NCBI RefSeq assembly: GCF_000400485.1
Contig: NZ_ASHR01000016.1
Location: forward strand, 1 to 36,994
Origin: Agrococcus pavilionensis RW1
GTDB lineage: Bacteria > Actinomycetota > Actinomycetes > Actinomycetales > Microbacteriaceae
Direction of reading: 5' to 3'
DNA length: 36,994 nucleotides
Below the pieces are notes generated by a model. It saw only the letters and a program-made list of their open reading frames with translations, was not told where the DNA came from and searched no databases. Position 1 is the stretch's first letter, and each line of letters opens with the position of its first letter. The translations under genes were made by a program, and so were the position numbers. This document shows positions 1 through 36,827 of this stretch, piece by piece.

Positions 1-770
1 ATGTAGAGGTAGAACGCGTTCGAGACGCCGTGTCGGCCGGGGCCGCGCTCGATGTGGTCCGACATCCGCAGCGCGCCGAGCTTGTCGCAGATCTGGATGA
101 TGTTGTGCTTCTCGTGGGTCGAGAACGCGATGTGGTGCATGCGCGGGCCGTTCCCGCCCGTGAGCGCGGTGTCGTGCACGGTGCCCTTGCGGTGCATCCA
201 CGCGGCGTAGGTGACGCCCTGGTCGTCCTGGATGTCCTCCGTGACGCGGAAGCCGAGGTCCTCGAGGTACTTGCGACCGCGCGGCACGTCGGGCGTGACC
301 TGGTTGAAGTGGTCGAGGCGCACGAGCTCGCCCGCCGAGTAGAGGTCGTAGCGCTGGTGCAGCCGCTCGGCGTGCTCGGTCGCGTAGAAGAACTCGTAGG
401 GGAAGCCCAGCGGGTCCTCGACGCGCACGCTGTCGCCGAAGCCCTTCTGGAAGCCGTCCGCGCGACGCTCCGTGCGGCATCCGAGCTCGCGGTAGTAGGC
501 CTCGGCGCGGTCGACGTCCTCGGGCGTGCGCACGCGGTACGCGAACGCGGCGACCGCGGCGACGGGGCCCTTGCGGAGGACGAGGTTGTGGTGGATGAAC
601 TCCTCGAACGACCGCAGGTAGATCGCCTCGTCGTCCTCCTCGGTCACGTGCAGGCCGAGGATGTCGACGTAGAACTCGCGGCTCTTGGCCAGGTCGGTGA
701 CCACGAGGTCCATCGCGGCGCAGCGGATGATGTCGGGCGCGGGGACGGAGGGCTTGGGGATCTCGTTCAT
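1..770 (-). CDS. hpaD: 3,4-dihydroxyphenylacetate 2,3-dioxygenase, 3' end outside window
   Basis: Extradiol ring-cleaving dioxygenase of the vicinal-oxygen-chelate fold. It opens homoprotocatechuate to 5-carboxymethyl-2-hydroxymuconate semialdehyde with a non-haem metal. The ATG at 770 opens a protein starting MNEIPKPSVPAPDIIRCAAM, and two glyoxalase-like modules follow. Near the left edge the metal-ligand segment GPRMHHIAFSTHEKHNII and then GRHGVSNAFYLY are readable, as in Brevibacterium/Arthrobacter-type HpaD. The final glutamate ligand and C-terminus lie beyond position 1. It follows hpaE by 21 nt and should be the last visible gene of that transcript. The family assignment is firm; metal preference (Fe or Mn) cannot be read. 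Confidence 0.9.
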   Translation of the reverse strand, partial: MNEIPKPSVPAPDIIRCAAMDLVVTDLAKSREFYVDILGLHVTEEDDEAIYLRSFEEFIHHNLVLRKGPVAAVAAFAYRVRTPEDVDRAEAYYRELGCRTERRADGFQKGFGDSVRVEDPLGFPYEFFYATEHAERLHQRYDLYSAGELVRLDHFNQVTPDVPRGRKYLEDLGFRVTEDIQDDQGVTYAAWMHRKGTVHDTALTGGNGPRMHHIAFSTHEKHNIIQICDKLGALRMSDHIERGPGRHGVSNAFYLY

Positions 771-791: not shown

Positions 792-2285
792 TCAGGCGGA
801 TGCGCCGAAGCGGGTGGTGTGGACGTCGCCGAGCGTGATGTGCACGGCCTGCTGGTCGCTGTAGAAGTCGAGCGAGCGGTAGCCGCCCTCGTGGCCGAGG
901 CCCGAGGCCTTGACGCCGCCGAAGGGGCTGCGGAGGTCGCGCACGTTGTGGCTGTTGAGCCACACCATGCCGGCCTCGACGTCCTGCGCGAACAGGTGCG
1001 CGCGCTTGAGGTCGTTCGTCCAGATGTAGGCGGCGAGCCCGTACTTCGTGTTGTTGGCGAGCGCGAGCGCCTCCTCGTCGGAGTCGAACGGCGTGATGCA
1101 CACGACCGGCCCGAAGATCTCCTCCTGGAAGATGCGTGCCTCGGGGGCGACGTCGACGAACACGGTCGGGGCGACGAAGTTGCCCTCGGGGAACGCCTCG
1201 GGGCGGCCGCCGCCGGCGACGAGGCGGCCCTCCTCCTTGCCGATCTCGACGTACGACATGACCTTGTCGAAGTGCTCGGGGTGCACGAGCGCGCCGACCT
1301 CGGTCTTCGGGTCGCCGGGGTCGCCCACGACGATGCTCTTCGCTCGCGCCGCGTAGCGCTCGACGAACTCGTCGTAGACGCTGCGCTCGACGAGGATGCG
1401 GCTGCCGGCCGTGCAGCGCTCGCCGTTGAGCGAGAAGACGCCGAAGAGCGTCGAGTCGATCGCGGCATCGAGGTCGGCGTCGGCGAAGACGACGGCGGGG
1501 CTCTTGCCGCCGAGCTCCATCGAGAGCGCCTTGAGGTGCGGCGCCGAGTTGCCGAAGATGAGCTGTCCCGTGCGGCTCTCGCCCGTGAACGAGATGAGCG
1601 GCACGTCGGGGTGCTTCACGAGCGCGTCGCCCGCGGTCTCGCCGAAGCCGTTGACGAGGTTGAAGACGCCGCGCGGCAGCTCGGCCTCCTCGAAGATGCC
1701 CGCCCACAGCGACGCCGAGAGCGGCGTGAACTCGGCGGGCTTCAGCACGACGGTGCAGCCGGAGGCGAGCGCGGGTCCGAGCTTCCACGACTCGAGCATG
1801 AAGGGGGTGTTCCACGGCGTGATGAGGCCCGCGACGCCCTTGGGCTTGCGGTTGACGTAGTTCACCTGCGTGCCGGGCACCTTGTAGGTGTCGTCGCGGC
1901 CGGCGACGATGAGGTCGGCGAAGAAGCGGAAGTTCTCGGCGGCGCGCTGCGCCTGGCCCTTGGCCTGCGTGATCGGCAGGCCCGAGTCCCACGACTCGAA
2001 CTGCGCGAGCTCCTGGTCGCGCGACTCGACGATGTCGGCGATGCGGGAGAGGATGCGCGCGCGCTCGCGGTTCTTCATGCGCGGCCACGGGCCCTCGTGG
2101 AAGGCGCGGCTCGCGGCGGCGACGGCGAGGTCGATGTCGGCCTGCTTGCCGGAGGCGGCGACGGTGTAGTCCTCGTTCGTGACCGGGTTGAGCACGCCGA
2201 ACGTGTCGCCGTCGACCGACGCGACGCGCTCGCCGTCGATGTAGTGAGGGATGAGGTCGGGGATGCCTGCGGGCTGGTCGGCCAT
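792..2285 (-). CDS. hpaE: 5-carboxymethyl-2-hydroxymuconate semialdehyde dehydrogenase
   Basis: NAD-dependent aldehyde dehydrogenase of 497 residues, the usual family length. It oxidises the ring-cleavage product made by HpaD to 5-carboxymethyl-2-hydroxymuconate. Visible active-site elements are the oxyanion Asn159 in PWNTP, the general base Glu257 in MELGGKSP and the catalytic Cys291 in NGERCTAGSR. No signal peptide, so cytoplasmic. It sits between the GntR regulator (79 nt upstream) and hpaD (21 nt downstream) on the same strand. Sequence alone would allow another semialdehyde substrate; the neighbours make HpaE the best call. Confidence 0.9.
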   Translation of the reverse strand: MADQPAGIPDLIPHYIDGERVASVDGDTFGVLNPVTNEDYTVAASGKQADIDLAVAAASRAFHEGPWPRMKNRERARILSRIADIVESRDQELAQFESWDSGLPITQAKGQAQRAAENFRFFADLIVAGRDDTYKVPGTQVNYVNRKPKGVAGLITPWNTPFMLESWKLGPALASGCTVVLKPAEFTPLSASLWAGIFEEAELPRGVFNLVNGFGETAGDALVKHPDVPLISFTGESRTGQLIFGNSAPHLKALSMELGGKSPAVVFADADLDAAIDSTLFGVFSLNGERCTAGSRILVERSVYDEFVERYAARAKSIVVGDPGDPKTEVGALVHPEHFDKVMSYVEIGKEEGRLVAGGGRPEAFPEGNFVAPTVFVDVAPEARIFQEEIFGPVVCITPFDSDEEALALANNTKYGLAAYIWTNDLKRAHLFAQDVEAGMVWLNSHNVRDLRSPFGGVKASGLGHEGGYRSLDFYSDQQAVHITLGDVHTTRFGASA

Positions 2286-2330: not shown

Positions 2331-2381
2331 TCAGGGCTGTCGGCAGCTCAGGGCTGCGTGGGGCTCAGGGCTTGGGCTGCG
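2331..2381. repeat. three 17-bp direct repeats at the end of the GntR gene
   Basis: TCAGGGCT recurs at 2331, 2348 and 2365, exactly 17 bp apart, followed by diverged GC-rich sequence. Read on the minus strand each copy is AGCCCTGA, so TGA stops appear in all three frames. The copy at 2365 is the real stop codon of the GntR gene. The copies look like a degenerate tandem duplication of the gene's own 3' end; no function is evident. Confidence 0.55.
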
Positions 2382-3066
2382 CGCGGTGCAGGTAGGCATC
2401 GGGCGTCGCGAGCCGGTGCGCGCGCACGGCGAGCTCGATGCGGCGCGGGTCGGCGCCCTCCTCGATGAGCGCGAGGATCCCGTCGTGCTCGTCGACCGAT
2501 GGCACGGCGCGGCTCGGCACGAACGAGAAGGTCGATTGGCGCAGCCGCGCGAGGCGCTTCCAGCACGTGTCGATGACGTCGCCGAGCACGCCGTTGGGGC
2601 AGACGTCGGTGAGCTGCCGGTGGAACGCCTCGTTGAGGGCGGTGAACCGCACGGGGTCGAAGTCGGCGAGCGACTGCCGCATCTCGTCGTTGATCGCGCG
2701 CGCGGCGGCGACGTCCGACGCCGAGTAGAGGCCGGCGGCGAGCGAGATCGCGGCGCCCTCGACGTACGAGAGCGTCTCCATCGTGTCGTGGTACTCGAGC
2801 TCGTCGATCTCGGCGACGCGCGCGCCGATGTTGCGCTCGAACGTGACGAGGCCCTCGGCCTCGAGCCGGCGGATCGCCTCCCGCACCGGCACGACGCTCA
2901 TGTCGAGCTCGCGGCCGATCGCGTCGAGCACGAGCCGGAAGCCGGGGGAGTAGGTGCCGTCGACGATGCGGTCGTGCAGCAGCCGGTAGGCGCGCTGCGA
3001 CTTCGAGGGTGCGATCGTGCCGCCCGACTCGGCGACGGCGGCCGTGCGCTGCCGCCGGCCGCTCAC
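2365..3066 (-). CDS. GntR/FadR-type transcriptional regulator of the hpa genes
   Basis: Repressor-type regulator of 233 residues. The N-terminal winged helix (about 22-92) carries VPVREAIRRLEAEGLV, the typical GntR recognition helix. A helical FCD effector domain (about 100-225) holds conserved His residues in NEAFHRQL and VDEHDGILAL. The GTG start at 3066 overlaps the stop of the upstream HpaG-RraA gene as GTGA, so the two are probably translationally coupled. Being inside the operon, it likely senses an aromatic acid or ring-fission product and controls both the operon and the divergent transporter. Candidate operators lie at 4584-4595 and 4682-4693. Ligand and targets are inferred. Confidence 0.88.
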   Translation of the reverse strand: MSGRRQRTAAVAESGGTIAPSKSQRAYRLLHDRIVDGTYSPGFRLVLDAIGRELDMSVVPVREAIRRLEAEGLVTFERNIGARVAEIDELEYHDTMETLSYVEGAAISLAAGLYSASDVAAARAINDEMRQSLADFDPVRFTALNEAFHRQLTDVCPNGVLGDVIDTCWKRLARLRQSTFSFVPSRAVPSVDEHDGILALIEEGADPRRIELAVRAHRLATPDAYLHRAQPKP

Positions 3067-4577
3067 GACCCCTCCGTCGCGGCGGTCTCGGCCTCGTACT
3101 TCGCGCGCCACTCGGCGTTCATCGGGAACAGCCCGTCGACGGGGTGGCCCGCCTCGACCTGCGCGGCGATCCACTCCTCCTCGGCCTCCTGCTGCAGGCT
3201 CTCCTCGACGAGCTCGCGCGCGAGCGCCGGCGGGATGACGAGCACGCCGTCGTTGTCGCCGACGATGATGTCGCCGGGCTGCACGGTCGCGCCGCCGCAC
3301 GCGATCGTCTCGTCGAACGACCACGGCACGTGCAGCCGGCCGAGCACGGCGGGGTGGCCGCCGCCGTGGTAGGTCGGCACGCCGATCTCGGTCACGACGT
3401 CGAGGTCGCGCACGCCGCCGTCGGTGACGAGGCCCGCGGCGCCGAGGTGGCGGGCGCGGAGCGCGAGGATGTCTCCGAGCGTGCCCGAGCGGTTGTCGCC
3501 GCGCGCCTCGATCACGACGACCTCGCCGGGCTGCAGCGAGTCGAACAGCCGCTTCTGCGCGTTGTAGCCGCCGCCGTGGCTCTTGAAGAGGTCCTCGCGA
3601 TTGGGCACGTAGCGCAGCGTGCGCGCGGTGCCGACCATGCGCTTGCCGGGCTGCGTCGAGCGCAGGCCGTCGATCGAGACGTTGTTGAGGCCGCGCTTCC
3701 GCAGTCCCGACGAGAGCGTCGCGAGCGCGACGCGCGAGAGCTTGTCGCGCAGCTCGTCGTCGAGCACGGGCGCGGCCTGCGGCTCGAACTCGGCGATCGG
3801 GCGGCCGGATGCGTCGGCCCACTGGTCGGGCGTCGGCTTCGGCTGGGCGGAGTAGGCGGGCAGCCGCTGCTCGCCGACCCGCACGGTCGACGCGAGCCGC
3901 CCGGTCGAGAGGCGCTCGCCGTCGAGCGCGGTCGCCGTCACCTCGACCTCGACCGACTGGCCGGGGGAGAGGGTGGATGCGTTCGCGGGCGTGCCCGTGA
4001 GGATCACGTCGCCGGGCTCGAGCGTGATGAGCTGCGAGAGGTCGCTCACGATCTGCGGGAGCGAGAAGAGGAGCGTCGAGGTCGAGTCCTCCTGCACGAG
4101 CTCGCCGTCGAGCCACGTCCGCACCTCGATCGCGTGCGGGTCGAGCCGCGTCGCGTCGAGCAGCGCCGGGCCGATCGGCGTCATGCCGTCGCCGCCCTTC
4201 GAGCGGATGTTGGCGCCCTTGTCGACCCAGCGGAGGTCGAAGACGCCGAGGTCGTTCGACGCGGTGACCGACGCGACGTGCGCCCACGCATCCGCCTCGT
4301 CCACCGCTCGCGCGTGCGAGCCGATGACGATCGCGATCTCGCCCTCGAAGCCGAAGATCTCGGTGCCCGCCGGCATGACGACCTCGCCGCCGGTCGAGAG
4401 CGAGGTCGCGGGCTTGAGGAAGAAGCCCGGCGCCTCGGGCGTGCGGCCCTTCTGCGCGGCGCGGCCGCGGTAGCCGATGTGCATCGCGAAGACCTTGCCG
4501 GGGCGGGAGCCGAGCAGGCCCCAAGCCGCTTCGGCGGAGGCGAGGGAGTCGGTTGGGAGCTGCGACGATGCATGCAT
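3063..4577 (-). CDS. hpaG: FAH-family isomerase/decarboxylase (HpaG-like) fused to RraA-like aldolase domain
   Basis: Protein of 504 residues with two enzymes. Residues about 25-235 form a fumarylacetoacetate-hydrolase fold with metal ligands Glu78 and Glu80 (GFEGEIA) and Asp109 in NDLGVFDLRW. It resembles HpaG, which decarboxylates 5-oxo-pent-3-ene-1,2,5-tricarboxylate and isomerises the product. After a linker (about 240-272), residues 275-455 match the RraA/4-hydroxy-4-methyl-2-oxoglutarate aldolase fold, with DGGVRD at 386-391 and GDNDGV near 440-445. The second domain could cleave the 4-hydroxy-2-oxo acid made later in the pathway (the HpaI role) or decarboxylate oxaloacetate; both are inferences. 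The start at 4577 is preferred over an open frame reaching 4697 because a promoter lies 6 nt before it, and the longer version would run through the operator. Confidence 0.85.
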   Translation of the reverse strand: MHASSQLPTDSLASAEAAWGLLGSRPGKVFAMHIGYRGRAAQKGRTPEAPGFFLKPATSLSTGGEVVMPAGTEIFGFEGEIAIVIGSHARAVDEADAWAHVASVTASNDLGVFDLRWVDKGANIRSKGGDGMTPIGPALLDATRLDPHAIEVRTWLDGELVQEDSTSTLLFSLPQIVSDLSQLITLEPGDVILTGTPANASTLSPGQSVEVEVTATALDGERLSTGRLASTVRVGEQRLPAYSAQPKPTPDQWADASGRPIAEFEPQAAPVLDDELRDKLSRVALATLSSGLRKRGLNNVSIDGLRSTQPGKRMVGTARTLRYVPNREDLFKSHGGGYNAQKRLFDSLQPGEVVVIEARGDNRSGTLGDILALRARHLGAAGLVTDGGVRDLDVVTEIGVPTYHGGGHPAVLGRLHVPWSFDETIACGGATVQPGDIIVGDNDGVLVIPPALARELVEESLQQEAEEEWIAAQVEAGHPVDGLFPMNAEWRAKYEAETAATEGS

Positions 4578-4583
4578 GTCGGC

Positions 4584-4613
4584 ATCGTATACGATTCCGA
4601 ATCTGGTGTGCAA
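4584..4613 (-). promoter_or_regulatory. hpa operon promoter with overlapping palindromic operator
   Basis: On the minus strand TTGCAC (4613-4608) and TACGAT (4589-4584) are 18 bp apart, and the ATG at 4577 follows after 6 nt, so the message is probably leaderless. The perfect 12-bp palindrome ATCGTATACGAT (4584-4595) covers the -10. A second near-palindrome GATTCCGAATC lies at 4593-4603. A GntR dimer bound here would block RNA polymerase. Confidence 0.6.
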
Positions 4614-4664
4614 GGCCGTCGTGCGCTGGCCGATCGGGGCAGCCTCAGGGTCCGCCCAAGGCGC

Positions 4665-4693
4665 TTGTCGTCGTGCACGAAATCGTATATCTT
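4665..4693 (+). promoter_or_regulatory. transporter promoter with operator-like half site
   Basis: TTGTCG (4665-4670), 17-bp spacer, TATCTT (4688-4693). ATCGTATATCTT at 4682-4693 shares its first eight bases with the palindrome in the divergent promoter. This suggests that the same GntR regulator controls both sides. Confidence 0.5.
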
Positions 4694-4748
4694 CCACTCA
4701 GTCCCGGCACCGAGCCCTCGGCGCCCTTCCCCTGACAAAGGAGTCAGC

Positions 4749-6161
4749 GTGTCTCACAGCACGACGCCTCACACCTCCGCGCGAGAGCGCAACAAGGTCC
4801 TCGCCGCCGTCGTCGTCGGCACCACGATCGAGTGGTACGACTTCTTCATCTACGCCTTCATGGCGAACCTGGTCTTCGCGCAGCTCTTCTTCGAGCCGGC
4901 CGGACCGGGCGTCGGCCAGATCATCTCGCTCGTGACGATCGGCATCTCGTTCCTGTTCCGCCCGCTCGGCGCGTTCCTCGCCGGCCACTTCGGCGACCGG
5001 ATCGGCCGTCGCCCGATGCTCGTCCTCACGCTCCTCCTGATGGGCGTCGCGACCACGCTCGTCGGCGCGCTGCCCACCTACGAGCAGGTCGGCATCCTCG
5101 CGCCGATCATGCTCATGGTGCTGCGCATCCTGCAGGGCCTCTCGGCCGGCGGCGAGTGGGGCGGCGCCGTGCTCATGGCCATCGAGCACGCGCCGGCGAA
5201 CCGCCGCGGGCTCTACGGCTCGTTCGTGCAGGCCGGCGTGCCGATCGGCATGCTGCTCGCGACCGGCATCCTCGCGGCCATCCGTGCCATGTTCCCGGGC
5301 GACGCGTTCCTCGAGGTCGGCTGGCGCATCCCGTTCTTCATCTCGATCATCCTCGTGCTCGTGGGCTACCTCGTGCGCCGCTCGGTCGACGAGTCGCCGG
5401 TGTTCCAGGAGATCAAGGAGACGGCGCAGGAGCAGTCGGCGCCCATCGTGCAGGTCTTCAAGAAGTACGGCCTCGTCGTGCTCTTCGCCGCGCTCGTCTT
5501 CATGGCGAACAACGCCACGGGCTACATGACGACCGGCGGCTACGTGCAGGGCCTCGCGTCCCGACCCGTCGACGCGCCGGTGCCGGGCCTCGGCTTCGAC
5601 CCCGTCGGCGTGCAGCTGGCGACCTTCGCGGGCTCGCTCTCGTGGCTCGTGTTCACGTTCGTCGCCGGCTGGGCCTCCGACCGCATCGGCCGCAAGCCGC
5701 TCTACCTCATCGGCTGGACGGCCCTCGCCGCGGGCATCGTGCCGCTGTTCCTGCTCGTCGAGACGGGCGTCGCGGGCGTCGCGTGGGCGACGATCCTGCT
5801 CGGCGTGGGCCTGGGCCTCACCTACGGCGCGCAGGCGGCGTGGTACGCGGAGTCGTTCCCCGCCTCGGTGCGCTTCTCGGGCGTCTCGATCGCCTACGCG
5901 ATCGGCGCGGTGATCGGCGGTGCGTTCGCGCCGACGATCGCGCAGGCGCTGCTGCAGGCGACCGGCTCGACGTGGGCGATCGTCGGCTACCTGCTCGCGA
6001 CCGTGGTGCTCTCGCTGATCGGCACGCTGCTGCTGAAGGACCGCACGGGCATCCCGCTCTCGATCGAGTTCGAGAAGTCGGGCAAGTGGGACGGCTGGAA
6101 GAAGGGCGACGAGTTCGTCGCGCTCTCCGAGGTCGACCGCGAGGCAGCCGTCGAGCGCTGA
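4749..6161 (+). CDS. MFS transporter of the metabolite:H+ symporter (MHS) family
   Basis: Inner-membrane carrier of 470 residues with about twelve hydrophobic segments. MHS hallmarks are GTTIEWYDFFIYAFMANLVF at the first helix, FGDRIGRRPML in loop 2-3, RILQGLSAGGEWGGAV in helix 4 and ASDRIGRKPLYL in loop 8-9. The GTG start at 4749 has AAAGGAG (4737-4743) upstream. It is divergent from the hpa operon and shares an operator-like site with it, so uptake of homoprotocatechuate, hydroxyphenylacetate or a related aromatic acid is the likely role. Related carriers also move dicarboxylates, betaine and shikimate, so the substrate is inferred from context. Confidence 0.88.
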   Translation: MSHSTTPHTSARERNKVLAAVVVGTTIEWYDFFIYAFMANLVFAQLFFEPAGPGVGQIISLVTIGISFLFRPLGAFLAGHFGDRIGRRPMLVLTLLLMGVATTLVGALPTYEQVGILAPIMLMVLRILQGLSAGGEWGGAVLMAIEHAPANRRGLYGSFVQAGVPIGMLLATGILAAIRAMFPGDAFLEVGWRIPFFISIILVLVGYLVRRSVDESPVFQEIKETAQEQSAPIVQVFKKYGLVVLFAALVFMANNATGYMTTGGYVQGLASRPVDAPVPGLGFDPVGVQLATFAGSLSWLVFTFVAGWASDRIGRKPLYLIGWTALAAGIVPLFLLVETGVAGVAWATILLGVGLGLTYGAQAAWYAESFPASVRFSGVSIAYAIGAVIGGAFAPTIAQALLQATGSTWAIVGYLLATVVLSLIGTLLLKDRTGIPLSIEFEKSGKWDGWKKGDEFVALSEVDREAAVER

Positions 6162-6220: not shown

Positions 6221-6622
6221 TCAGGGCTCGACGCGCGGGTCGTCGAGCGGAGTACCCGCCTCGTAGGGCCCGAAGAAGAGGTCGGCGCCGTCCTGCGTGA
6301 GCGCGGTGCCCGAGGCGCGCTCGCCGTCGAACGCCGCGATGGTCGCGAAGGCGAGGCGCTCGCCCGGCTCGTGCGGGTCGGCGATCTCGAGCAGCCAGCC
6401 CTCGGGCGAGCGTACGATCGCGGGATCGGCGATGACGAGGCGCAGCATGCCGCTGTGCGCGGTGAGCGTCACGGAGCCGAGGAACGCGCCCTCGCCGGCC
6501 GCGGGGAAGCGGAAGCGGTCGCCCTCGGCCGTCGCCCCGCCGCCGGCCTCGACCGTGCCCGCCCCGCGGCCGCGCACGTAGTCGAGCAGCGACGCCTTGA
6601 TGCCCCAGTCGAGCGCGGTCAC
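6221..6622 (-). CDS. single HtaA-domain protein without export signal
   Basis: Protein of 133 residues that is nearly all one HtaA domain: TALDWGIKASLLDYVRG at the start, then GSVTLTAHSGMLRLVIADP in the middle, matching the tryptophan and tyrosine/histidine pattern of corynebacterial haem-binding HtaA repeats. Known HtaA proteins are exported and anchored. Here there is no signal peptide, transmembrane tail or sortase motif, so the product should be cytoplasmic. The GTG at 6622 overlaps the LysR stop as GTGA, implying coupled translation. Next to a haem enzyme (the P450 at 7642) it may bind haem or a similar ligand; that is inference. The domain call rests on recognised pattern, not on a search. 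Confidence 0.72.
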   Translation of the reverse strand: MTALDWGIKASLLDYVRGRGAGTVEAGGGATAEGDRFRFPAAGEGAFLGSVTLTAHSGMLRLVIADPAIVRSPEGWLLEIADPHEPGERLAFATIAAFDGERASGTALTQDGADLFFGPYEAGTPLDDPRVEP

Positions 6623-7542
6623 GGGCGGCCGGGCCAGGGGAGTGAGCGCGCGAACTCGATGAGCGCGCGCGTGCGAGCGGTCGGCTCGGGCGACGCGGGC
6701 CAGATCACGTCGATGCCGACCGGCGGCACGCGCGGCGCGATCTCGAGCATGGCGACAGGGTAGCCCTCGTAGCTCGCGGGGTTCGCGGGCCGCTGCACGA
6801 GGATGCCGTAGCCCAGGCCGCGGCCGACGAGCGCGCGCACGGCCTCGGAGCTCTGCACCCGGTGGCGCACGCGCGGCGTGACGCCCGCCGCCGCGAAGAG
6901 CGAGAGGGTGTGCTCGCTCGAGGGCGGCGCGTCGAGCAGGATGAGGTCGCGCTCGGCGAGCTCGGCGAGGCGCACCGAGCCGCGCGCGGCGAGCGGGTCG
7001 TCGCCCGCGACGACGACGTGCGCGGGCAGGGCGAAGAGCTTGGCCCGGCGCGGCTCGCCCGGCACGAGCGTGTCGTAGACGAAGGCGACGTCGATGCGGC
7101 CCGACTCGAGCCGGCCCTCGAGCCGGTCGTGCGTCGCCTCGACGATGTCGAGCTCGACCCGCGGATGCGCGCGGCCGAACCCGGCGAGGAGGGGAGGGAG
7201 GATCGTCGGCGCGAGGGTCGGGTAGCAGCCGATCGTGACCGGCCCGACGAGCTCGCCGGGGGCTCCCCGCAGCGAGGTCTCGAGCTCGCGCGACGACGCG
7301 AGCAGGTCGCGGGCGCGAGCGACGACATCCGCACCCGTGCTCGTGAGCGTCAGGCCGCGCGCTCGCCGGCGCACCGTCAGCTGCGAGCCGAGCTCGCGCT
7401 CGAGCTCGCTGATCGCCTCCGAGATCGCCGACGCCGACACGTGCAATCGCGCGGCGGCAGCGGCGATCGTGCCTTCGTCGGCGGCGCATACGAGGTAGGA
7501 GAGCTGCCGCAGGGTGAAGCCAGGGGCGTCGAGGGCATCCAT
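6619..7542 (-). CDS. LysR-family transcriptional regulator
   Basis: 307 residues, standard LysR length. The N-terminal winged helix (about 8-66) includes LSYLVCAADEGTIAAAAARL and the recognition helix with SASAISEAISELERELGSQL. The C-terminal half is a periplasmic-binding-protein-like effector domain, starting around VGPVTIGCYPTLAP. The ATG at 7542 is preceded by GGAGGAG. It is divergent from the P450 fusion with 99 bp between the starts, the classic layout for a LysR regulator and its target, and is coupled to the HtaA gene downstream. Likely an activator of the P450 gene in response to its substrate; the inducer is unknown. Confidence 0.9.
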   Translation of the reverse strand: MDALDAPGFTLRQLSYLVCAADEGTIAAAAARLHVSASAISEAISELERELGSQLTVRRRARGLTLTSTGADVVARARDLLASSRELETSLRGAPGELVGPVTIGCYPTLAPTILPPLLAGFGRAHPRVELDIVEATHDRLEGRLESGRIDVAFVYDTLVPGEPRRAKLFALPAHVVVAGDDPLAARGSVRLAELAERDLILLDAPPSSEHTLSLFAAAGVTPRVRHRVQSSEAVRALVGRGLGYGILVQRPANPASYEGYPVAMLEIAPRVPPVGIDVIWPASPEPTARTRALIEFARSLPWPGRP

Positions 7543-7641: not shown

Positions 7642-10593
7642 ATGCCCGAAGCTCCCGTCGCCGACTGGGTGACGATCCCAGACCTCCACCGCGACCCGTT
7701 CCCGATCTACGAGCGCCTGCGCGCCGAGGGCGGCGTGCACTGGGTGCCCGCCGTCGGGCGCTACCTCGTCACCTCCTACGAGGCGGTGCACGAGACCGAG
7801 CTCGACCAGGAGGTGTTCTCGGCGAACGAGCGCGGCTCGCTGCAGATCCGCGCGATGGGCCACTCGATGCTGCGCCGCGACGACCCCGAGCACTACCTCG
7901 AGCGCAAGGCGTGGCAGCCCGCGCTGCGGCCCGGCGTCGTGCAGCGCGTCTGGCGCTCGACGTTCGAGCGGAACGCCGAGCGCTACCTCGACGAGCTCGT
8001 CGAGAAGGGGCCGGGCGCCGACCTCATCTGGGACTTCGCCGCCCCCTACGCCGCCGAGAGCCTGCGCGAGATCATCGGCCTCCACAGCGCTCGGCAGGAG
8101 GACCTGCAGCGCTGGTCGCAGACGCTCATCGACGCGACCGGCAACTACGCCGATGACCCCGAGGTGTGGGCAAAGGGGCTGCGCTCGTTCGACGAGGTCG
8201 ACGCGGCGCTCGACGAGGTGCTGCCGTGGCACGCGGCCAACCCGAACGAGTCGCTGCTGTCGCAGCTCCTGCGCATCCCCGACTACGAGATGCCGATCGA
8301 GCGCATCCGCGCCAACGTGAAGATGACGATCGGGGGCGGCCTCAACGAGCCGCGCGACGCGCTCGGGGTCGCCGCGTGGGCGCTCCTGACGCATCCTGAG
8401 CAGCGGCGCGCCGTCGAGGCCGACCCGTCGCTCTGGAACGCGGCGTTCGACGAGACGCTCCGCTGGGTCGCGCCGATCGGCCTCTACTCGCGGCAGGTCA
8501 CGCGCGACACCGAGCTCGCGGGCGTGCGGCTGCCGGCCGGCGCGCGCTTGGGCATCTGCATCCTCTCCGCCAACCGCGACGAGCGCGTGTGGGAGGACGC
8601 CGCGCGCTTCGACGTGCGCCGCGAGGTCAAGCCGCACCTCGCCTTCGGGAAGGGCGTGCACGTGTGCCTCGGCGCGTGGGTCGCGCGCTCGGAGGTCGCC
8701 GATGTCGCGCTGCCCATGCTCTTCGAGCGGCTGCGCGGGCTCGACGTCGTGCCCGACGCGCCCCCGACGATCGCCGGCTGGGTCTTCCGCGGCATGACGA
8801 GCCTCCCCGTGCGGTGGCGCTCGGTCGCCGAGCCCGCGACGGTCGTCGCCGCGCCGGCAGCCGCCGAGCAGGCCGCGCCGCGCATCGCGATCGTCGGCGC
8901 CGGGCCCGCAGGCTGCTTCACCGCTCAGGCGCTCCGCCGCCGCTTCCCGGCGGCGGAGCTCGAGGTGCTCGACGGGCTGCCGGTGCCGTACGGGCTCGTG
9001 CGCTCCGGCGTCGCCGCCGACCACCCCGGCACGAAGTCGGTCGCGCGGCAGTTCGACCGGCTCTTCCAGCACGAGCGCGTGCGGTTCCGCGGCAACGTGC
9101 GCGTCGGCGTCGACGTGCCGCTCGACGCGCTCCGAGGCGCCTACGACGCCGTCGTGCTCGCGACCGGCATGCGCGCCGATCGGCCGCTCGACGTGCCGGG
9201 CGACGCGCTCGAGGGCGTCCACGGCGCCGGCCGCATCACGCGGCTGCTCAACGCGCACGCCGACGAGGGCGAGGCGCCGTCACTCGGCGAGCGCGTCGTG
9301 GTCGTCGGCCACGGCAACGTCGCGATGGACGTCGTGCGCCTGCTCGCGCGCGACGCCGAGGGACTCGGCGGCACCGACGTCGACGACGAGGCGCACGAGC
9401 GGCTCGCCGGTGCCGTGCGCACGATCCACGTCGTCGGCCGCAGCGCCCCGAGCGCCGCGCGCTTCGACCCGGTCATGGTGCGCGAGCTCGCGGGCCTGCC
9501 GGGCGTTGCGCATCGCGTGCACGGCGCCGGGCTCGAGGGCATCGAGCCGGGCAAGGACGCGCGGGCGGATGCGGTGCGGGGTCTGGTCGCGGAGCCCTCC
9601 TCCCAGCCGCGCGTCGAGGTGCACTGGTGGTTCGGGCTCTCGCCCGCGCGCATCGAGGGCGACGGCCGGGTCGAGCGGGCCGTCTTCCGCGGTGCCGACG
9701 GCGAGGTCGAGCTCGGGGCCGACGCGATCGTGACGGCCGTCGGCTTCGCCGCCGACGACGAGTGCCTCGTCGAACCGGGCGCGCACGCGAGCGGCCGGGT
9801 CGAGCCGGGCCTCTACACCGCCGGCTGGCTGCGGCGCGGGCCGCGCGGCACGATCCCCGACCAGCGCACCGACGCGCGAGAGCTCGCGCGCCTCATCGCC
9901 GACGACCTCGAGGCCGGCGCCATCGGGGCGGGCCGCGACGGGCTGCCGCCGGTCGAGGGGGAGACCGACTTCGAGGGCTGGCGGCGCATCGACGTGCGCG
10001 AGCAGCTCGGCGCGGCGCCCGGGCGCTCGCGGTCGAAGCTGCGCTCGCGCGCCGCGCTGCTCGAGGCTGCGCGCGACGCGACGATCCCGCTGCCGGAGGT
10101 CGAGCGCCTCGAGACCGCGACCGAGGGGGCGGGGCTGCCGGTGACGGTGCTGTTCGGCACCGAGTCGGGCGGCGCCGAGCTCGTCGCCGACGAGCTGCGG
10201 CGCGGCCTCGCGGGCCGGGCGGCGGTCGAGGTCGTCGACATCGCCGACGCCGCGCCGGGCGACCTCGATGCGAGCCGCCTCCACCTGCTCGTCTGCTCGA
10301 CGTACGGCGACGGCGAGGTGCCGACGAGCGCCCGGCCGTTCCTCCGCGCGCTCGTCGAGGAGCGCCCCGATCTCCGCGGCGTGCGCTTCGCGGCCTTCGG
10401 GATGGGCGACCGCAGCTACGCGAAGACGTACTCGCGCGGCAGCGAGCTCGTCGCCGAGGCGCTCGCGGCGTGCGGCGCCGAGCGCGTCGGCGAGTACGGG
10501 CGGCACGATGCCGGCGGGCCCGTGCCCGCGACCGAGGCTGCGCTCGAGTGGGCCGAGGGGGTGCTCGCCGAGGCGGCCGCGCCGGTCGCCTGA
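7642..10593 (+). CDS. cytochrome P450 - adrenodoxin-reductase-like - flavodoxin fusion
   Basis: A 983-residue protein with three redox modules. Residues 1 to about 400 are a soluble bacterial P450: ExxR at Glu271-Arg274 and haem loop FGKGVHVCLG with thiolate Cys342. The I-helix reads GGGLNEPRD (231-239), without the usual acid-Thr pair. An Ala/Pro/Glu linker leads to residues about 413-765, an FprA/adrenodoxin-reductase-type FAD enzyme: VGAGPAGC (418-425), NADPH loop VVGHGNVAMD (554-563) and GWLRRGPRGTIPD near its end. Residues about 833-983 are a flavodoxin: phosphate loop GTESGG (839-844), STYGDGEVP, and FGMGDRSY. Electrons should pass NADPH to FAD to FMN to haem within one chain. The ATG at 7642 is chosen because GAGGA lies 8 nt upstream; an open frame extends to 7567. 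Cytoplasmic. Substrate unknown. Confidence 0.93.
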   Translation: MPEAPVADWVTIPDLHRDPFPIYERLRAEGGVHWVPAVGRYLVTSYEAVHETELDQEVFSANERGSLQIRAMGHSMLRRDDPEHYLERKAWQPALRPGVVQRVWRSTFERNAERYLDELVEKGPGADLIWDFAAPYAAESLREIIGLHSARQEDLQRWSQTLIDATGNYADDPEVWAKGLRSFDEVDAALDEVLPWHAANPNESLLSQLLRIPDYEMPIERIRANVKMTIGGGLNEPRDALGVAAWALLTHPEQRRAVEADPSLWNAAFDETLRWVAPIGLYSRQVTRDTELAGVRLPAGARLGICILSANRDERVWEDAARFDVRREVKPHLAFGKGVHVCLGAWVARSEVADVALPMLFERLRGLDVVPDAPPTIAGWVFRGMTSLPVRWRSVAEPATVVAAPAAAEQAAPRIAIVGAGPAGCFTAQALRRRFPAAELEVLDGLPVPYGLVRSGVAADHPGTKSVARQFDRLFQHERVRFRGNVRVGVDVPLDALRGAYDAVVLATGMRADRPLDVPGDALEGVHGAGRITRLLNAHADEGEAPSLGERVVVVGHGNVAMDVVRLLARDAEGLGGTDVDDEAHERLAGAVRTIHVVGRSAPSAARFDPVMVRELAGLPGVAHRVHGAGLEGIEPGKDARADAVRGLVAEPSSQPRVEVHWWFGLSPARIEGDGRVERAVFRGADGEVELGADAIVTAVGFAADDECLVEPGAHASGRVEPGLYTAGWLRRGPRGTIPDQRTDARELARLIADDLEAGAIGAGRDGLPPVEGETDFEGWRRIDVREQLGAAPGRSRSKLRSRAALLEAARDATIPLPEVERLETATEGAGLPVTVLFGTESGGAELVADELRRGLAGRAAVEVVDIADAAPGDLDASRLHLLVCSTYGDGEVPTSARPFLRALVEERPDLRGVRFAAFGMGDRSYAKTYSRGSELVAEALAACGAERVGEYGRHDAGGPVPATEAALEWAEGVLAEAAAPVA

Positions 10594-36515: not shown

Positions 36516-36827
36516 ATGCCGAAGCAGATCCCGGAGGAGACGAAGCAGCGAGCGATCCGGCTCGTGCTCGACCATCTCGATGAGTACCCGAACCTGACGA
36601 CCGCGTGCGAGACGGTCTCGAAACGGCTCGGCTTCGGGGCCGAGTCGCTGCGCCGATGGGTGCGGCAGGCTCAGATCGACGCCGGCGAACGGCAGGGCGC
36701 CTCGACGAGCGAGTCGGAGCGGGTGCGGCGGCTTGAGCGGGAGAACCGTGAGCTGCGTGAGGCGAACGCGATCCTGCGCGACGCGGCGGTTTTCTTCGCC
36801 GGGGAACTCGACCCCCGACGCCGCTGA
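36516..36827 (+). CDS. IS3-family transposase OrfA
   Basis: 103 residues. A helix-turn-helix of the transposase_8 type (KQRAIRLVLDHLDEYPNLTT ... GFGAESLRRWVRQAQIDAG) is followed by a leucine-zipper-like helix, RRLERENRELREANAILRDA, and the common ending FFAGELD. AAGGAAG precedes the ATG at 36516. It binds the element's ends and forms OrfAB with the next frame. Confidence 0.9.
   Translation: MPKQIPEETKQRAIRLVLDHLDEYPNLTTACETVSKRLGFGAESLRRWVRQAQIDAGERQGASTSESERVRRLERENRELREANAILRDAAVFFAGELDPRRR

Follow-up and report, generated by a model that had tools for sequence, protein, structure and literature searches.

Can a cytochrome P450 carry the whole chain from NAD(P)H to haem within a single polypeptide? 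The question is raised by a gene of Agrococcus pavilionensis RW1 (contig NZ_ASHR01000016.1, assembly GCF_000400485.1, positions 1 to 36,994; this entire 36,994-nucleotide stretch is the window analysed here), in which a P450, a flavodoxin reductase (FdR) and a flavodoxin (Fld) appear in one frame. We consider it probable that the gene encodes a naturally self-sufficient P450: an aromatic O-demethylase of the CYP1232A type, with methoxylated phenylacetates as substrate, that was joined in a single fusion to the whole electron chain of the P450cin type.

One frame encodes a P450, a reductase and a flavodoxin

The frame runs on the + strand from an ATG at 7642 to a stop at 10591-10593 and, with 0 internal stops, encodes 983 residues. 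Pfam found in this single protein, in order, p450 (best stretch 265-353), Pyr_redox_2 (414-568) and Flavodoxin_1 (836-967), all above the gathering cutoffs; none of the 25 NCBIfam models listed, out of 42, reached its own cutoff. In phmmer searches of the PDB, the P450 part resembled 6g71 over residues 3-394 (E about 3.6e-165 to 2.2e-166), the middle part, from residue 409, resembled adrenodoxin reductase (1cjc) and FprA (1lqt), and the best match of the flavodoxin part was cindoxin (4oxx, E 3.2e-23). Foldseek likewise ranked FprA and adrenodoxin reductase at the top for the middle domain. An initial annotation, made from the sequence, had described three modules in one uninterrupted frame, a reductase of the adrenodoxin-reductase/FprA type and a C-terminal flavodoxin; all of this was borne out, and its positions for Cys342 and for the loops for flavin adenine dinucleotide (FAD), NADP and flavin mononucleotide (FMN) were correct within a few residues. 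The layout is as follows.

7642..10593, + strand: P450-FdR-Fld fusion, whole gene, 983 residues (open frame, Pfam and PDB matches)
7642..8826, + strand: cytochrome P450 domain, CYP1232A-like, residues 1-395 (6g71 match, 60.5% identity over 390 residues)
8332..8358, + strand: I-helix GGGLNEPRD, residues 231-239 (same in CYP1232A24)
8644..8673, + strand: haem loop FGKGVHVCLG, residues 335-344, with ligand Cys342
8827..8874, + strand: linker 1, residues 396-411, unconserved (0% invariant over 394-411, n=27)
8875..10041, + strand: adrenodoxin-reductase/FprA-type FAD-NAD(P)H domain, residues ~412-800 (PDB matches; Foldseek to 1lqu, 1lqt and 1cjc)
8896..8913, + strand: FAD loop GAGPAG, residues 419-424
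9307..9330, + strand: NAD(P)H loop GHGNVAMD, residues 556-563
10042..10137, + strand: linker 2, residues 801-832 (6% invariant positions, n=27)
10138..10590, + strand: flavodoxin domain, residues ~833-983 (Flavodoxin_1; cindoxin-like over ~833-975, 4oxx E 3.2e-23)
10153..10179, + strand: FMN phosphate loop FGTESGGAE, residues 838-846

One chain therefore holds haem, NAD(P)H-reductase and carrier domains, the domain set of a self-sufficient P450. Frame and domain order are common to 27 distinct full-length sequences, the window's included, and among these the invariant positions amount to 47% in the P450, 28% in FdR, 30% in Fld, 0% in linker 1 and 6% in linker 2. Because invariance is high in the domains and so low between them, the fusion is three constrained modules joined by free linkers. 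The residue after the Arg of the NADP-site loop is Ser in 27/27 fused proteins and in 12/14 separate flavodoxin-linked reductases, and a second Arg at that position in the FprA-like L002 of the same genome and in L031; the coenzyme may be either NADPH or NADH.

The fusion recurs in several genera and is under purifying selection

At 73-76% GC, chance often produces long frames, and the gene might in principle be one of them, or else three genes run together by a fault of sequencing or assembly. A contig search returned eight near-full-length loci, four in Agrococcus, three in Leucobacter and one in Serinicoccus. Among 24 Agrococcus genomes the frame was intact in 16 (the window's own included), broken in one (G761) and matched only partially, by a 45% P450, in one, with no match in six; A. 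lahaulensis DSM 17612 (L004) has the gene at 99% best-segment identity. The order-wide sample contained the fusion in 10 of 396 genomes, two of these Agrococcus, and the class (394 genomes) and phylum (296) samples only in Agrococcus already counted. The genome sets overlap, so that these counts are not additive, and the order, class and phylum searches scored two candidates per genome. In family f6 (the family of G099, which we guess to be Micrococcaceae), 66 of 345 genomes matched CYP1232A24, the closest solved P450, at E <= 1e-110; with one locus taken per genome, these were 16 P450-FdR fusions and 50 unfused genes. Flavodoxin followed in the same frame in 15 of the 16, and at L191 the contig ends before it. 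Of the plasmid records, 185 matched some part of the query and 0 covered 80% of it.

The ratio of nonsynonymous to synonymous change (dN/dS, Nei-Gojobori) was 0.09-0.44 in every domain for the six informative pairs of seven; the seventh, the window against L004, was nearly identical and had too few differences. Several loci of lower GC were read by open frames. The same architecture is found in Agrococcus, Leucobacter, Serinicoccus and further families of the order, and a stop between the modules, which could have undone the initial annotation, is absent from the window. Broken frames do occur at L009 (Leucobacter massiliensis, one of the eight contig loci) and L104 (G761, Agrococcus), as an artefact would predict, but independent assemblies from several genera show an unbroken frame, which purifying selection maintains. 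We rejected a GC-rich chance frame on the strength of the in-frame homologues, and regard an artefact of either kind as next to impossible.

The breaks themselves lie near 11190-11280 in L009, at the P450/FdR junction, and within 6973-7905 in L104, late in FdR; the rest of each is full-length. Either real decay or sequencing error may account for them.

The P450 domain is a CYP1232A relative

The closest solved P450 is PDB entry 6g71, titled 'Structure of CYP1232A24 from Arthrobacter sp.', with 60.5% identity to the P450 domain over 390 residues. Membership of a CYP subfamily is placed at >55% identity, which puts the domain in CYP1232A; in the P450 tree, too, the fused clade joins 6g71 with support of 100/98, on a 6g71 branch that is long and flagged by the program. 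This supplies the CYP assignment that the initial annotation had called for alongside the domain search. GcoA is a more distant relative (E 5.7e-46).

The initial annotation had further noted that the I-helix GGGLNEPRD lacks the usual acid-Thr pair and that oxygen activation may differ. The helix is no peculiarity of the fusion: the motif is identical in CYP1232A24, takes the form GGxNEP in 17/17 rows of ferredoxin-type relatives and GAMQEPG in GcoA, and so belongs to the family at large. We rejected it as a mark of new chemistry.

CYP1232A24 is said to have been used with separate redox partners. Its cluster contains flavodoxin and flavodoxin reductase, according to a review passage (PMC9687028). 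The locus of CYP1232A24 itself was not found among the 345 f6 genomes, where nothing exceeded 63%; going by that passage, its partners may be separate genes.

The fused proteins form one clade and differ from ferredoxin-type relatives in the haem loop

In the 65-row P450 tree, the 36 fused-locus rows (frame-broken L009 and L104 among them) made up one clade (95/90) with CYP1232A24 as sister (100/98), and 24 ferredoxin-type rows lay outside the fused clade, 18 of them adjoining the group of fused rows plus CYP1232A24. This tree omits matches <150 bits, loci outside the listed sets, second copies (L015-L023, L106, L110) and L068-L080; L100-L102, 35-37% P450s with no ferredoxin neighbour, were kept apart. 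An earlier tree of 55 rows, built without CYP1232A24 and the f6 fused rows, likewise gave one fused clade (29 rows, 100/100). The reductases of 34 fused rows separated as one clade from 15 others (99/98), and the flavodoxins of 34 from 14 others (97/97). Since the fused rows form one clade in all three domain trees, a single fusion event would be the simplest reading.

All 50 unfused f6 loci have a 2Fe-2S ferredoxin gene and a putidaredoxin-reductase-type gene within 2.5 kb. At L040 a ferredoxin is present, with no putidaredoxin-reductase-type gene in reach. The haem loop, which sits on the face of the P450 where redox partners dock, reads F[GS]KGVHVC in 16/16 fused f6 proteins and FG[GA]GxH[FY]C in 50/50 of the ferredoxin type, so that loop and P450 form go together in 66/66 genomes. 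CYP1232A24 has FGKGVHVCLG, as in the fusion, and should therefore be flavodoxin-driven. The loop Lys is absent from P450s of other families whose neighbours are separate FdR and Fld genes. Given the ferredoxin linkage and loop of all unfused loci and the other loop of all fused ones, this lineage apparently changed its carrier from 2Fe-2S ferredoxin to flavodoxin and fused once, the fusion presumably arising after the change. If so, the switch could be read in the haem loop, with Lys337 and Val341 replacing Gly/Ala and Phe/Tyr. A single evolutionary event could by itself explain the association of loop and carrier, which we therefore treat as a lead, short of proof. Close relatives that use a ferredoxin chain occur in that same family of bacteria, which makes the exchange of carriers open to direct test through a few residue swaps.

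As separate, adjacent genes, FdR and Fld also accompany other P450s (24-28% identity), in Leucobacter, Rhodococcus and further genomes. Rhodococcus pyridinivorans P23 has unfused genes in the sequence P450, FdR, Fld, just as the domains follow one another in the fusion, and L086 has an XplA-like order, an FdR gene followed by an Fld-P450 fusion. Such neighbours of the same kind, together with linkers that vary in length and sequence, would suit flavin domains that act chiefly in trans, on other P450s or oxidoreductases, the fusion merely fixing stoichiometry. But all three domains are constrained and share one history, and the haem-loop sequence tracks the fusion; we find service in trans improbable and prefer an electron path within the chain.

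Two more arrangements were noted. At L011, L013, L014 and L047 a different P450 (24-26%) is transcribed divergently from an adjoining pair of separate FdR and Fld genes, within a cluster of uncharacterised genes shared by Leucobacter and family f7. On the alphaproteobacterial plasmids L087, L088 and L093, FdR and flavodoxin genes lie directly 3' of an aldehyde dehydrogenase gene, with no annotated P450 within the stretch shown.

Neighbouring genes suggest a methoxylated phenylacetate as substrate

Upstream of the fusion the window contains the following genes.

3..770, - strand: HpaD, 3,4-dihydroxyphenylacetate 2,3-dioxygenase, cut by the window edge (TIGR02295 above cutoff)
792..2285, - strand: HpaE, 5-carboxymethyl-2-hydroxymuconate semialdehyde dehydrogenase (TIGR02299 above cutoff)
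2365..3066, - strand: GntR/FCD regulator
3063..4697, - strand: FAH-RraA protein, start codon uncertain (PRK12764 above cutoff)
4749..6161, + strand: major facilitator superfamily (MFS) metabolite/H+ symporter (best model TIGR00883, below its own cutoff)
6221..6622, - strand: HtaA-domain (haem-binding-type) protein, 133 residues (PF04213, E 8.2e-16; 4-base overlap with the LysR gene)
6619..7542, - strand: LysR regulator, diverging from the fusion gene (35/36 fused loci have a LysR within 4 kb)

The divergent LysR protein is likely the regulator of the fusion. HpaD opens 3,4-dihydroxyphenylacetate. CYP1232A24, in 2019 work by Klenk, reportedly converts homovanillate to this same compound and also demethylates 3,4-dimethoxyphenylacetate; the product is thus the substrate of HpaD, and the fused enzyme would feed the neighbouring pathway, which suggests what its own substrate is. 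The HpaD/HpaE/FAH-RraA cluster adjoins the fusion in other Agrococcus as well and in L055, from another family. Among 18 ferredoxin-type loci HpaD, HpaE and FAH-RraA were each seen once; one such relative, L096, adjoins both HpaD and HpaE, so the link to the pathway either predates the fusion or arose twice.

From the observed frame, domains, clades, conservation and neighbours we infer the following sequence of steps. NAD(P)H would reduce a bound FAD in the adrenodoxin-reductase-like middle domain, and electrons would move one by one onto FMN in the C-terminal flavodoxin domain; this domain, free to swing on a flexible linker, would reach the proximal side of the P450 and reduce the haem. The P450 would then oxidise an O-methyl group of a methoxylated phenylacetic acid, our best guess being either homovanillate or 3,4-dimethoxyphenylacetate, releasing the methyl as formaldehyde and leaving 3,4-dihydroxyphenylacetate for breakdown by the HpaD, HpaE and FAH-RraA proteins next door.

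Several points weigh against this account. The AlphaFold model (16 rows; mean predicted local distance difference test score 61.8, about 70-95 across most of FdR and Fld; predicted template-modelling score 0.52) failed in the P450 part and gives nothing on docking. The exact place of CYP1232A24 is unsure because of its long, flagged branch. Two of the known fused loci have the broken frames described above. Within 9 kb of the 36 fused loci, many with flanks too short, we saw HpaD at 6, HpaE at 9 and FAH-RraA at 11; other fused members may therefore serve other pathways, and the f7 fusions have LysR and MFS genes beside them, with neither HpaD nor HpaE in the stretch that was covered. The enzyme might thus be self-sufficient and act on a different aromatic ether, such as guaiacol, vanillate or a fragment of lignin, or hydroxylate its substrate, with the cluster an accidental neighbour; GcoA, the distant relative, demethylates many methoxyarenes (PMC6021390). 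However, identity between the P450 and CYP1232A24 is about 60%, several Agrococcus and L055 likewise have the cluster next to the fusion, and the ferredoxin-type L096 also stands beside HpaD and HpaE. We hold this alternative to be conceivable but rather unlikely, and continue to favour demethylation of methoxylated phenylacetates.

Near the end of the window (36516-36827, + strand), a weak open frame resembles by eye the first frame of an IS3-type transposase; it adjoins a stretch of lower GC.

An HtaA-domain gene accompanies many fused loci

An HtaA gene lay within 4 kb at 23/36 fused loci, 0/18 ferredoxin-type loci and 1/14 loci with separate FdR and Fld genes; the fused loci that have it come from several genera. 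In f6 it was near 13/16 fused and 0/50 ferredoxin-type genes, 10 of the latter having only ~1-1.5 kb of flank. It was not found at 13/36 fused loci, including L055 and all seven of family f7. By eye, one Tyr and one His are kept in all 31 aligned HtaA copies; a further Tyr is present in 30, and the remaining copy is truncated at that point. Positions of this kind bind haem in corynebacterial HtaA. A haem carrier for the fused P450 is our guess at its role. We put forward only tentatively, as a rather doubtful extension, that the fusions are a further natural self-sufficient class, an O-demethylase fused once, after the carrier switch, to a P450cin-type pair and served by a cytosolic HtaA protein as dedicated haem supplier.

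At L046 (7955-11409), FdR, Fld, P450 (26%) and HtaA genes are consecutive on the same strand. Judged by gene content, this is a second, independent pairing of HtaA with a flavodoxin-linked P450.

Comparison with known P450 systems

The introduction of a 2025 paper names two main classes of self-sufficient P450s (PMC11889516), to which a 2022 review adds the KU-64 type (PMC9687028); on reductases of the ferredoxin-NADP reductase (FNR) family, that review states that products from bacterial flavodoxin reductase and flavodoxin lack direct evidence. Another paper speaks of flavodoxin that is fused with a P450 as well as with a flavodoxin reductase domain, and names CYP116B3 as the example (PMC9405906); because CYP116B is otherwise described as FMN reductase plus 2Fe-2S (PMC11889516), we did not count this wording as the same architecture. 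The literature searched, which leaves most subscription journals outside its coverage, described no natural P450-FdR-Fld protein, in agreement with the initial annotation, which knew of no class with this domain order. It yielded no paper on CYP1232, the name CYP1232A24 occurring only in one review's reference list, and among the listed papers on homovanillic acid and P450 none dealt with this enzyme. The P450-FdR-Fld protein is a variant of self-sufficient P450s with a domain combination that we did not find described.

XplA, paired with XplB, is a flavodoxin-driven P450 with an adrenodoxin-reductase-like reductase. XplA itself is a flavodoxin-P450 fusion (PMC9405906). Its flavodoxin is N-terminal and its reductase separate, whereas in the fusion the flavodoxin is C-terminal and the reductase in the chain, which is thus not of the XplA type. 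The initial annotation had seen the XplAB chain made into one polypeptide. As an analogy this stands; as ancestry we rejected it, since the P450 domain of the fusion shares just 24% identity with the P450 part of the XplA-like L086 and is a CYP1232A relative, and the flavodoxin resembles cindoxin.

CYP1232A24 agrees with the fusion in I-helix and haem loop and is its sister, but reportedly works with partners that are separate proteins. In the P450cin system, electrons pass from NADPH to FAD, FMN and P450 (PMC9687028). The fusion has the same type of chain, with an FAD flavodoxin reductase and a cindoxin-like flavodoxin as in class III; there, P450cin, cindoxin reductase and cindoxin are three separate proteins, unlike the one 983-residue frame, whose P450 also belongs to another family. 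GcoA is a related O-demethylase P450 with a similar I-helix, but its reductase, a three-domain protein with a 2Fe-2S centre, is separate (GcoAB, CYP255A; PMC6021390). CYP116B (class VII) and the KU-64 type are likewise self-sufficient three-part chains, with a 2Fe-2S domain; Pfam matched no such domain in the fusion, which has a flavodoxin instead.

CYP102 (P450 BM3, class VIII) is likewise self-sufficient, with FAD and FMN domains behind the P450 in the order P450-FMN-FAD. Its reductase is of the cytochrome P450 reductase type in the FNR family, whereas that of the fusion is, by sequence and fold, of the adrenodoxin type, in the order P450-FAD-FMN, which sets it apart from class VIII. The clade shows a natural fusion of flavodoxin with an adrenodoxin-reductase-type reductase, linked to a P450, and a one-chain O-demethylase of this kind could be useful for lignin-derived aromatics.

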